From Methanothermobacter sp. (GTDB taxonomy: Archaea > Methanobacteriota > Methanobacteria > Methanobacteriales > DSM-23052): a stretch of DNA of 64,000 bases. Made by a program: the position numbers and the translations under genes. Under the pieces are notes generated by a model. It saw only the letters and a program-made list of their open reading frames with translations, had not been told where the DNA came from and did not search any database. The stretch lies in NCBI GenBank assembly GCA_030055615.1, contig JASFYN010000002.1:313245-377244 (forward strand). Reading direction: 5' to 3'. Within the stretch, counting starts at the first letter, position 1, and the number at the start of each line of letters is the position of its first letter. Positions 6,431 through 10,293 of the stretch are shown here, in pieces.

Positions 6431-7264
6431 TTAAATTTCTCTGATTATAAGTGCAGGCACATGTTCAATTGATTCAAGACTTCTAATAGTTATTTTATCT
6501 TTTTCCTCTTTAAATATTCTCTCCATATCATAAACTGTTTCAATATGTTCTTCACGGTTTTTATGATAATTTTCTGCAACTTTAGCTATCTCAAGTATCA
6601 TATCTATGCTAATCCTTTTTGAAGCTGCAATTGGTGTTGGTAATATTGTATTTGAGAATCTTCCAAGAAGATAACCCCAAAATCCAGTATCAGACTTTAT
6701 ACCATCGACAGCACAAGGCAAAGGAGTGAAATAACATCCCATCAACTTATAAGTAGCATCAGTATCGATTATAATAACGGTAACATCCTTCCCATAACCA
6801 TCCTGTATGTTTCTGGCAATATCCTCCGAGACGCCCCTAGGATTCTCTGGTAAAAGAGCTACCAAAGTCCCTGGAAGATTACTCAAATCAATACCAGCCT
6901 CAGAACCAGGCTTCAAAGCATGCTTAATACCATAATATCTGAGCACAACCTCCTTATGAGCCCTAGCTTCCTTTGGAAGTCTTCTCAAATTTCTTATCGT
7001 CCTCTTTTTCACCCCAAACAATGGCCCCAGAAGATAACCCCAAATATATTTAGACCATACCTCTGCAAGTAAAAAAGCTAAAAAAGATGGTTCATACTTT
7101 GATTCGTCAACTATACGCCCCTGTGATATGGCAACTGGCGTCTCAGAAATTACAAGATAATCCCCATCCTCAACCATCGGACCAGCCTTATCTATAAGCT
7201 CATCCAAACCCTCATTAGGCCTTATATACCCAGTTTTCACTGGAATTACCTTATATTTACCCAT
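6431..7264 (-). CDS. CofE-like protein (F420-0:gamma-glutamyl ligase family)
   Basis: A 277-residue relative of coenzyme F420-0:L-glutamate ligase. Recognisable parts: VIPVKTGYIRPNE at the N-terminus, EDGDYLVISETPVAISQGR, NPRGVSEDIARNI, VTVIIIDTDATYK, and TPIAASKRISID. It is longer and diverged from true CofE (about 250 residues) and carries an inserted KYIWGYLLGPLFGVKKRTIRN-type segment, so it is probably a paralogue rather than the F420 enzyme itself. It is last in the comA-ABC-GTPase-FeS run, only 6 bases after the Fe-S gene. Ligation of an amino acid to a phosphorylated or carboxylated cofactor is an inference. Confidence 0.7.
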   Translation of the reverse strand: MGKYKVIPVKTGYIRPNEGLDELIDKAGPMVEDGDYLVISETPVAISQGRIVDESKYEPSFLAFLLAEVWSKYIWGYLLGPLFGVKKRTIRNLRRLPKEARAHKEVVLRYYGIKHALKPGSEAGIDLSNLPGTLVALLPENPRGVSEDIARNIQDGYGKDVTVIIIDTDATYKLMGCYFTPLPCAVDGIKSDTGFWGYLLGRFSNTILPTPIAASKRISIDMILEIAKVAENYHKNREEHIETVYDMERIFKEEKDKITIRSLESIEHVPALIIREI

Positions 7265-7270
7265 GGAGGA

Positions 7271-7951
7271 TCATCTTCCCAATTTTATAGGGGGAGCCCA
7301 TACTTTCAAATCAATCCCCTCTATAAGGGCCCTTTCACCCTCCAACTGCACTATGACCCCAGAATGTACCTTCTGCATCATACAATGATGGGGTATGAAA
7401 CGGACAGTATCACCCACAGAAGGTAATCTACCCTCTATTATACCCTCAAATCCGCTAACAAGACATATTCCAATCTCTTTGAATTCAAAATCTTTATCAA
7501 GCCTATGACATGGACCCACTATATGAACAGTGATAAGTCCATGACTTTCATCTATTATCTTCGCAAAATGGGTTATAGGACAACCAAGGGGCCTGTAACG
7601 GATCACTTCCCCACTTTTAAGTCTTTCATTTGTAAAGGGGTAAAGTATTTCACGGCAAGAACTTTCACCTGGGAGCGGTTTCAATATAAAATCGGCCTCA
7701 TAACCATCTAGTAGACCGATTATCACCTTCTCTTCAGGTGTTATTTTCTCCTCTTTGAGTAATCTTTGAAGCTCTTCAAGGTTTTTTGCGAAAATCTCCT
7801 GGTATAAGAATCTGCAGTCTTCGAGTTTAGCATATCCTCTTATTAGGGCTCCTCCAAATTCATCACATCTGGCATAGCCACATATACCACAATTAAAACC
7901 GGGAAGGAGTGAAATAATTTCTTCTTTAATCGAATTTTTCTCCATCATCAT
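7271..7951 (-). CDS. Fe-S domain protein of the comA cluster
   Basis: A 226-residue protein whose N-terminus ([19 protein letters not shown] ... LEDCRF) matches the four-Cys Fe-S domain (PF04060 type) also found in RnfB and in the corrinoid Fe-S protein of CO dehydrogenase complexes. The rest has two further Cys/His-containing stretches ([21 protein letters not shown]) and no domain I can name. GAGAGG lies just before the ATG triplet. It probably holds one [4Fe-4S] cluster and transfers electrons or serves as a scaffold for the neighbouring GTPase and ABC ATPase. Function unknown. Confidence 0.75.
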
Positions 7952-8021
7952 AGAAACCTCTCACAAAAGATATAACTATCTTTTCGAAAACCTTGGAATG
8001 AAATTTTGAGAATTTTCGACT

Positions 8022-8729
8022 CTATTCTCCTTGGTATGTTTGGAATCCATCTATCCTTCGGAGTATTCCCCTATGATGTTTCTTGTTAACCCTTGTTTCA
8101 CCCACACATAACGTGCATACCGCAAGTGGGGCGGAGTGCCTGAGTTTTTCGCTTTCAAGGGAAACTTCTGGACTTTTAACCATCTCCTCTGCCAATTCTA
8201 AGCATCCCTGGCCGCTTAGCCCATTAGCCTCTATTATCTTAGCATTAGGGTTTACTTCGAGTATCCTTTCCCTGAATATTTCACGTTCAGCCTGTGATAT
8301 CATATCCCCTTTAGTTACCACTACAATATCCGCTGTTGAAAGGAATGGACCAACCTTTAATGGCGTGTTAGGCCCACTCGTAGCATCTATGACGCATACA
8401 CCTAAACAGTTCTTTGTATATGGTGCGCATCTATGACATAAACCAGCAGTTTCTATTATAAGAAAATCTGAATTGTTCCCTTGCGCCCAGTCTATCATAT
8501 CCTCTATGTTGTATATCGCATAATGGTCTGGGCACATGTCCATTGATAGGCCTACAAGGGTTGGTACGCCTATTTTTTTAAATTTTTTATCATCGTCAGT
8601 GTAAAGGCAGTCAATTTTAACAACTGATGCTGTGAAATTATCCCTCATAAGACTTTTTAAAACATGAACTAGGACTGCTGTCTTCCCGGAACCAGGAGTC
8701 CCCGCCACTATAACCATTCTCATCCTCAT
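8022..8729 (-). CDS. SIMIBI/G3E-like GTPase with Cys clusters
   Basis: A 235-residue P-loop GTPase of the HypB/UreG/CobW kind. Seen: Walker A GTPGSGKT (about residues 10-17), Asp in [10 protein letters not shown], the ETAG element in [12 protein letters not shown], and the TKGD guanine-specificity motif. Cysteines cluster as CHRC ... CLGVC and CTLCVGE near the C-terminus, suggesting a metal or Fe-S site. Such GTPases commonly load metals or cofactors into enzymes. GGAGGG lies before the first of three closely spaced ATGs, so the start is uncertain by up to four residues. The next gene upstream is an ABC ATPase. Confidence 0.72.
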
Positions 8730-8740
8730 TTAACCCTCCA

Positions 8741-9517
8741 CTAGCTGGTTAAACCCCTAAGTTGTATATCTTCTATGATCTCACCGTGTCTTACCTTGTC
8801 CCTTAAGTTGAGGAGTAGATCGTCTATCTTGCTAAGTTCCTTTGAGAGTTCCTTTTCATGAGGTGTAGTTGTAACTATTTTTTGCATGCCACCATTTTTC
8901 ATGACGATCCTTTTATCTGTCATAAGGGCAAGGATAGGATCATGAGTGACTACCATAACAATCTTACCATGCCCCGAGAGAACCTCCAACGCCTCATGTT
9001 TCCTTATACCAGCATTTTCTATCTCGTCGATGAGTACTATCGGAGAATCACTTATTATAGCCACGTCAGCCACCATAAGGGCCCTTGATTGGCCTCCACT
9101 TAATATTGTCAAGTCATGGCTCTTTTTTATGGGTTCGCCTGTTAATGTGTTAGCCAATTCTATAACCTTGTTTACGCAGGATTTGTGGGCACCTCTACAT
9201 TTAGCATGAAGTGTCAAAAATTCGCCTACTGTCATGTCGGCCAAAAAGTTCATATTCTGTGATAATTGAGCTACCATCTTCTTACGTGGGTTGGTACGAT
9301 CTTCGTACGTTGGTTCCTTATCATTTACTAGTATTTTCCTCCTGGAGAATGTATCCCTTTGGGCTAATTGTTCAATATCAGCTATTAGTGAACTTTTACC
9401 GCTGCCTGTGGGGCCTACTACACCGAATATTTCGCCCCTATTTATATCGACTCTTCTGACGGGTTCTTTTTTCCCAAATTTATCATAGCCGCCTAATATT
9501 GTCACCTTTTTTATCAT
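8741..9517 (-). CDS. Stand-alone ABC-type ATPase
   Basis: A 258-residue ABC ATPase with Walker A (GPTGSGKSS), Q-loop region, signature [10 protein letters not shown], Walker [13 protein letters not shown] and H-loop VVTHD. It has a Cys-bearing insert ([13 protein letters not shown]) between Q-loop and signature. No permease or binding protein gene is near, so it is unlikely to be a transporter subunit; it pairs instead with the GTPase. The ATG overlaps the comA stop as TAATG, so translation is coupled. A role in ATP-driven activation or repair of a methanogen enzyme is speculation. Confidence 0.75.
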
Positions 9518-10293
9518 TAGAGCTTCACCTTTCCTAGAGTATCCCCTCTAAGCCCTCTTCGCATGCTTTCAAGGGAAATAACATCCTCTGGTGGTATGTT
9601 ACCAAGGTTAGCATTGGGCCCTATCTTTAGAATGAAGTAGACTTGTTGATTTTTTTGTGGAGCTTCCCATATCAACTTTTCCACTGGTAAATGTGCTATA
9701 AGATAGTCAACTTCATCTTCTTTAACCTCACCTCTTTCATCATATACTCCAATGTTCTGGCCACTTTCTCTGGCTTCTATCAAAACCTTTTCAGCACCTG
9801 CTTTAAGATCATCTTTCACAGATTTTACCCTTTCCTTGAGACTTATTATTTTATCCTTCTTTGGATCTTTTTTACCAACCTCTGAAATCACTTTGAATCC
9901 GTGATCTATTGTATCCTCTATTATCTTGGTTTTCTCTTCCCTTGGCAAGTCTATTGAACCATCTGATATTTCAAGGTATTTGAAGCCGAGTTCTTCAGCT
10001 TCATGGAGATATTCCTCGAATTTACCCTGGATATATGCTATTTCAAAGAGTGTACCTCCAGGGTGTGCTTCAACCTCATGATCTCTATAAATCCTGATTT
10101 TTTCTTTTATAATATCTTTATCACATAAGCTTATAATACCCCATCCAAATTTTACAAAATCTAAATGTTCACCAGCTATCTTCAAAAAATCTTCTACCAT
10201 GCGGGGGCCTAAACCCTTATCTAACATCATGGTAATACCTCTATTATATTGTTCTCTTATCCTGGCTGGTGCTAAAAAATTAAAAGCGTGCAT
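9517..10293 (-). CDS. comA: Phosphosulfolactate synthase
   Basis: Adds sulfite to phosphoenolpyruvate giving (R)-2-phospho-3-sulfolactate, the first step of coenzyme M synthesis. The 258-residue TIM-barrel protein shows [60 protein letters not shown] and [18 protein letters not shown] lies a few bases before the ATG. It heads a minus-strand run of five tightly packed genes whose other members are not known coenzyme M enzymes. Confidence 0.95.

Follow-up and report, generated by a model that had tools for sequence, protein, structure and literature searches.

A three-gene ABC ATPase, GTPase and Fe-S protein cassette in coenzyme M operons and its possible part in sulfur supply

Biological methane formation depends on coenzyme M (CoM). 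The first, sulfite-fixing step of CoM synthesis is catalysed by phosphosulfolactate synthase (comA). In a Methanothermobacter sp. genome (1.49 Mb, 99% complete), comA is followed by four further genes on the minus strand, and the locus raises the question of which of these belong together and what they contribute to CoM formation. The window analysed is a 64,000-nucleotide stretch of this genome. Within its positions 6431-10293 the open reading frame (ORF) listing and family searches verified all five ORFs reported by a first-pass annotation, in the same places and with agreeing families: comA, a stand-alone ABC ATPase, a UreG/HypB-like GTPase, an iron-sulfur (Fe-S) protein and a CofE-like protein. 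The conserved unit is the three-gene cassette ABC ATPase-GTPase-Fe-S protein (the trio), which lies between the backbone genes comA and the CofE-like gene. We consider it quite possible, if short of probable, that the trio is a metal/sulfur module, driven by nucleoside triphosphates (NTP), which provides CoM synthesis with sulfur. By what route methanogens growing on sulfide acquire sulfite and transfer sulfur to CoM is an open question (PMC6286981, PMC12068725). A cassette that occurs in both CoM routes and can be separated from its neighbourhood opens that question to genetics and biochemistry, and a sulfur-delivery system of this kind, if real, would answer where the sulfur of CoM comes from.

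The boundaries of the cassette are evident from genomes that lack it. Whole-genome searches of 153 Methanobacteriota found the full-length Fe-S protein in 16, compared with 144 for the CofE-like protein and 128 for the CoM synthase MMP16 (ComF). Trio-less genomes keep the backbone PK_C-comA-CofE-like-transcription factor E-HD, with comA directly adjoining the CofE-like gene at L168, L169, L175, L176, L181, L182 and L183; at some other trio-less loci comA falls outside the examined stretch. Conversely, L041 has the trio with the CofE-like gene 6 kb off. Because the backbone persists without the trio, and the CofE-like gene can lie this far from it, the trio is a separable cassette. The fifth window gene shares PF01996 with CofE (F420-0:gamma-glutamyl ligase) but is otherwise unlike it: it reaches 57 bits against the TIGR01916 cut-off of 181, its similarity to solved CofE stops near residue 168-176, and the CofE listed for Methanothermobacter is another gene (MTH1019), far from comA (MTH1674). 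The CofE-like protein was therefore rejected as a component on distribution and synteny; its gene adjoins the cassette from outside and is possibly co-transcribed with it. Taken in its strong form, the proposal of the first-pass annotation would be a five-gene, methanogen-specific device loading F430, MCR or an F420-like cofactor. Adjacency and the small spacers between the five window genes fit such a device, which is nevertheless highly improbable, as the CofE-like protein is much commoner than the trio and occurs without it, the trio is present in bacteria, and in other genomes the trio shares its operons with genes of CoM synthesis. Across methanogens the five genes do not form a single conserved unit, and an involvement in loading F430 or MCR is not supported.

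Within Methanobacteriales the trio is coupled to comA. The ABC ATPase start overlaps the comA stop (TAATG or GAATGA) in all 13 loci examined, including the Methanothermus-like L033, and the sequence AAGGTGA, likely a ribosome-binding site, lies inside the comA end in the same 13 of 13. The TAATG junction noticed earlier in the window is thus real and not a chance arrangement. Loci L018-L021, L036 and L186 retain only a 74-94-residue remnant of the Fe-S protein after comA, with its four Cys kept and its C-terminal domain gone, and the ABC ATPase and GTPase genes are missing from them. Since both genes disappear together with the C-terminal domain, that domain may be what the two proteins act on.

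The association with CoM genes extends well beyond this order. The GTPase scan took one genome per species, matched exact peptides and covered 100 candidate stretches, and is therefore non-exhaustive; it gave matches in Methanobacteriales, Methanotrichaceae, Methanosarcinaceae, Methanomassiliicoccales and Labilibaculum/Marinifilaceae bacteria, and none of the viral contigs carried the GTPase. The Fe-S protein was detected in 76 of 298 Halobacteriota (matches at E < 1e-15), 13 of 246 Bacteroidales and 5 of 147 Thermoplasmatota, absences in these counts including incomplete genomes. One Fusobacterium has the ABC ATPase and GTPase with no Fe-S match. The order comA-ABC-GTPase-FeS is found in Methanobacteriales. 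Methanosarcinia and Methanomassiliicoccales have cysteate synthase-ABC-GTPase-FeS-comD-comE with a convergent mmp16, or the same without comDE. Other loci read ABC-GTPase-FeS-mmp16-cysteate synthase-comD-comE, and L105, L106, L110 and L121 carry ABC-GTPase-FeS and mmp16 without cysteate synthase (CysS). As the trio sits both in comA operons and in cysteate synthase/comDE operons, the support for its link to CoM comes from both routes.

A GTPase tree resolved two deep clades, although long branches were flagged and fine placement is unsure. Clade I holds the comA, cysteate-synthase and Labilibaculum-type trios, and clade II the mmp16-type trios together with bacterial trios that include a cysteine desulfurase. 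Patchy distribution, horizontal transfer and trio copies away from CoM genes (L113, L116, L123, L159) would be expected of a mobile or relic cassette that merely happens to sit in CoM operons. We give this explanation very little credence: the CoM association recurs, in independent gene orders and in two clades, and mean column identity in Methanobacteriales is 89% for the GTPase and 87% for the ABC ATPase, as against 77% for the Fe-S protein and 71% for the CofE-like protein.

Co-localisation as such was already known: the Fig. 2 legend of PMC12068725 (PLoS Genet 2025) reports that an ATPase, a 'Ni2+ binding GTPase' and a COG2000 Fe-S protein are frequently encoded next to CoM biosynthesis genes, and gives their role as unknown. 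According to that source the same three kinds of gene stand beside CoM genes in several methanogen orders, as in the cassette described here, the match being one of kind and position; the name COG2000 for our Fe-S protein rests on this likeness to the published description and not on a COG search. The present analysis adds the cassette boundaries, the comA overlap, the two clades, the bacterial desulfurase versions, a second site and a truncated form of the Fe-S protein, and the independence of the CofE-like gene. Of the earlier proposal, the tie to CoM gains from trios inside CoM operons in several gene orders with both entry enzymes, comA and cysteate synthase, whereas its generality and exclusivity do not hold. 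At least 112 MMP16-bearing Methanobacteriota and 61 of the 129 MMP16-bearing Halobacteriota lack the Fe-S protein, and relatives are encoded by Bacteroidales and a Fusobacterium, one of two observations named beforehand as speaking against a joint cofactor role.

The GTPase and the ABC ATPase are of kinds suited to NTP-driven handling of a metal or cofactor. The closest solved relatives of the GTPase are UreG (5xkt, 4hi0) and HypB (4lps), nickel metallochaperones with which it has in common the P-loop, PF02492 and the position of a Cys-Pro-His-type motif. Its C66-P-D-H69, downstream of the P-loop, aligns with the Ni-binding Cys-Pro-His of UreG (motif function in PMC3792862), and it probably binds a metal, to judge from these residues. 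It differs from UreG and HypB in two extra motifs, CxRC and CxxC, each invariant like CP(D)H among the 83 homologues, in scores far under the curated UreG/HypB equivalog cut-offs (33.6 against 204.2 bits for TIGR00101, 55.2 against 121.2 for TIGR00073), and in the lack of urease or hydrogenase partners in the cassette operons seen. The ABC ATPase has a single ABC domain (258 aa) with Walker A, signature, Walker B and H-loop intact in the window and invariant in 76 homologues. Among its best 25 of 161 NCBIfam matches no equivalog exceeds its cut-off and TIGR03269 (MCR activation component A2) is absent. As remarked earlier, there is no transporter permease among the ORFs flanking the window cassette (Pfam/NCBIfam matches), and no cognate permease is found among recurrent trio neighbours at other loci. 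The motifs of both enzymes would fit the NTP-driven metal or cofactor work first proposed for them.

The third protein combines a familiar domain with an undescribed one. Its PF04060 match (44.1 bits, gathering score 23) contains C21, C24, C29 and C46, invariant in all 82 homologues from archaea and bacteria, and these four Cys would carry a 4Fe-4S cluster. In sequence and predicted fold this N-terminal domain is like that of corrinoid Fe-S proteins and RnfB, the modelled domain resembling the Fe-S domain of 4c1n, 4djd and 2ycl; in contrast, the remainder is an unrelated beta-rich domain, and the operons have no corrinoid or Rnf partners. Two AlphaFold models (mean predicted local distance difference test, pLDDT, 82 and 86) agree on the beta-rich C-terminal domain, for which neither gave a Protein Data Bank (PDB) fold match at E <= 0.001; PF04060 is the only Pfam domain over cut-off in 16 of 16 members. 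D82, R120, C124, H128, C190, M191, H196 and E211 are invariant in the same 82 archaeal and bacterial homologues, and C124PxxH128 with C190Mx4H196 forms a putative second metal or catalytic Cys2His2 site. With this CPxxH/CMx4H signature, found in archaeal and bacterial members alike, the domain is a candidate for a previously undescribed metal or sulfur site. In L044 (2305-2642) part of the domain is repeated directly after the trio; this contig is labelled Methanosaeta, but its GTPase groups with Methanobacteriales, so that it may be mis-binned.

Outside CoM operons the trio keeps company with sulfur genes. A NifS-type cysteine desulfurase gene lies between the GTPase and Fe-S genes in all ten clade II Bacteroidales loci examined, and likewise inside the trio of the archaeal L116. 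Rrf2 regulators occur at six bacterial loci (closest to the IscR and CymR models of NCBIfam, but under their cut-offs) and Crp/Fnr-type regulators at nine, and SAMP1/MoaD-like, MoeB/UbaA-like, CysK-like and SsuA-family genes are present near L113, L116, L143, L147 or L156. A soluble, permease-free ABC ATPase, the bacterial NifS-type desulfurase and the Rrf2 regulators recall SUF/NIF assembly (SufC, NifS/SufS), but SufB/SufD and NifU are not among the recurrent trio neighbours, and the GTPase and COG2000-type protein stand in their place. Searches of the literature for ABC-GTPase-desulfurase operons and for the Methanothermobacter locus tags found nothing.

Sulfur supply to CoM synthesis is supported by CoM gene orders that recur independently, by the co-occurrence of trio and MMP16 and the extra clade II trio-MMP16 cassettes described below, by the desulfurase and other sulfur-related genes near trios outside CoM operons, by the co-loss in Methanobacteriales and by the UreG metal motif. 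In such a module, the GTPase and the soluble ABC ATPase would act, perhaps as a complex, on the COG2000-type Fe-S protein. Reduced sulfur would be taken up, in bacteria as cysteine persulfide from the NifS-type enzyme and in archaea from sulfide or another donor, and the sulfur or a metal-sulfur group would be handed to the enzymes responsible for C-S bond formation in CoM. The recipient could be ComA or cysteate synthase (as sulfite) or MMP16 (as thiol). Several findings weigh against sulfur supply. The trio is dispensable for CoM, given the 61 MMP16-bearing Halobacteriota and the majority of Methanobacteriota without the Fe-S protein; the description of the M. acetivorans CoM genes MA3297-3299 includes no trio; and the archaeal CoM operons examined contain no desulfurase gene. 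Eight trio-bearing Halobacteriota lack MMP16, and the 13 trio-bearing Bacteroidales lack any PF01837 protein.

The relation of the trio to MMP16 bears on where the sulfur or metal might go. MMP16 is present in 68 of the 76 trio genomes among the 298 Halobacteriota (odds ratio 22, Fisher p 4e-22, with shared descent ignored). Clade II trios stand ahead of mmp16. Genomes G392, G456 and G412 (L191, L193, L200) carry an extra clade II trio with its own MMP16 copy; the extra MMP16 groups with clade II and the resident MMP16 elsewhere, which suggests that the second trio and its MMP16 were transferred together. These cognate pairs, the trios adjoining mmp16 without CysS (L105, L106, L110, L121), and the UreG/HypB kinship and CP(D)H motif of the GTPase would also suit a maturation role, in which MMP16, or a related enzyme of COG1900, receives a metal or Fe-S cluster from the GTPase and ABC ATPase by way of the COG2000 protein and no substrate sulfur is involved. 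We think this unlikely. Eight trio-bearing archaea (G219, G427, G457, G348, G452, G202, G407 and G210) have no MMP16 match, though each has a PF01837 protein, and three of them (L156-L158) keep trio-CysS-comD-comE. Trio-bearing Bacteroidota, 17 genomes in two sets of 5 and 12, have no PF01837 protein. Moreover, MMP16 without a trio is common, the MMP16s of trio-less L203 and L204 nest within the trio-adjacent clade, and in the window the coupling of the trio is with comA and not with mmp16, which lies about 9 kb away. Since MMP16-less archaea and PF01837-less bacteria carry the trio, MMP16 is not the sole recipient, and a factor for MMP16 only was rejected as the sole role.

The two enzymes upstream of clade I trios direct attention to sulfite. 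ComA and cysteate synthase both use sulfite, and their genes lie immediately upstream of these trios, comA with the start/stop overlap. The anaerobic-methanotroph paper PMC6286981 describes sulfite as essential for CoM synthesis and its in situ source as unclear. A module that makes sulfite for either enzyme by oxidising or mobilising reduced sulfur would accord with this, with the persistence of trio-CysS-comD-comE where MMP16 is missing, and with the trio-bearing Labilibaculum euxinus A4, which makes capnine sulfonolipids derived from cysteate. Sulfite provision is nonetheless distinctly unlikely as the specific function: the trio has no oxidoreductase of known type for the multi-electron oxidation, and some trios stand beside mmp16 without CysS. 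The capnine line gives no support either, because CapB is not enriched in trio genomes (10 of 13, against 166 of the 233 trio-less genomes among 246 Bacteroidales; p 0.76). The CysK-like gene in L147 was rejected as the capnine cysteate synthase CapA (180 bits, cut-off 600).

Sulfur supply to CoM synthesis also has a wider form, which we regard as rather unlikely: an undescribed NTP-driven sulfur-delivery system, extending from Bacteroidota to methanogens, in which the UreG-like GTPase and ABC ATPase would charge the new Cys2His2 domain of the Fe-S protein and so supply the sulfur of CoM, possibly as sulfite.

Table 1. Positions in the 64,000-nucleotide window of the cassette, its motifs and related CoM genes.
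Feature	Position	Strand	Evidence
comA, phosphosulfolactate synthase	9517..10293	-	TIGR03849 332 bits (cut-off 280); PF02679 318 bits
comA stop / ABC start overlap, TAATG	9515..9519	-	AAGGTGA inside comA end
Stand-alone ABC ATPase, cassette gene 1	8741..9517	-	PF00005 57 bits
UreG/HypB-like G3E GTPase, cassette gene 2	8022..8729	-	PF02492 (cobW/HypB/UreG) 51 bits
GTPase C66-P-D-H69 motif	8523..8534	-	83/83 homologues; aligned to UreG Cys-Pro-His
GTPase C98-x-R-C101 motif (EtAGLCxRC)	8427..8438	-	83/83 homologues
GTPase C205-x-x-C208 motif	8106..8117	-	83/83 homologues
Fe-S protein, COG2000 kind, cassette gene 3	7271..7951	-	PF04060; AlphaFold2 mean pLDDT 85.9
Predicted 4Fe-4S domain, Cys21/24/29/46	7808..7906	-	PF04060 residues 16-48; Cys in 82/82
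Beta-rich C-terminal domain, residues ~82-219	7295..7708	-	Absent from Pfam
C124-P-x-x-H128, first half of putative metal/catalytic site	7568..7582	-	82/82
C190-M-x4-H196, second half of putative metal/catalytic site	7364..7384	-	82/82
CofE-like paralogue	6431..7264	-	PF01996 (F420_ligase) 83 bits; TIGR01916 56.9 (cut-off 180.65)
MMP16 / ComF, coenzyme M synthase, TIGR03287	18532..19779	+	Genome G000 match C2:331836-333017, E 2.5e-165

The window locus is flanked downstream by genes for transcription factor E and an HD-domain protein, and upstream by a divergent PK_C-domain gene. Some neighbours of trios elsewhere are of separate interest. Near the clade II trios of L113, L116 and L156 is an SsuA-family substrate-binding-like protein with no obvious signal peptide, accompanied by MoeB/UbaA-like genes in L113 and L116 and by a SAMP1/MoaD-like gene in L113. 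A cysteine-dioxygenase-like ORF, recognised by eye and with no NCBIfam match, lies two genes past the desulfurase-type trio in L144 (5277-5825). In Fusobacterium vincentii (L140, 7823-10807) a 392-aa protein without an NCBIfam match is encoded just upstream of the GTPase and ABC ATPase genes, and zinc-uptake-like genes follow them, in a 2.1 Mb record filed as a plasmid.

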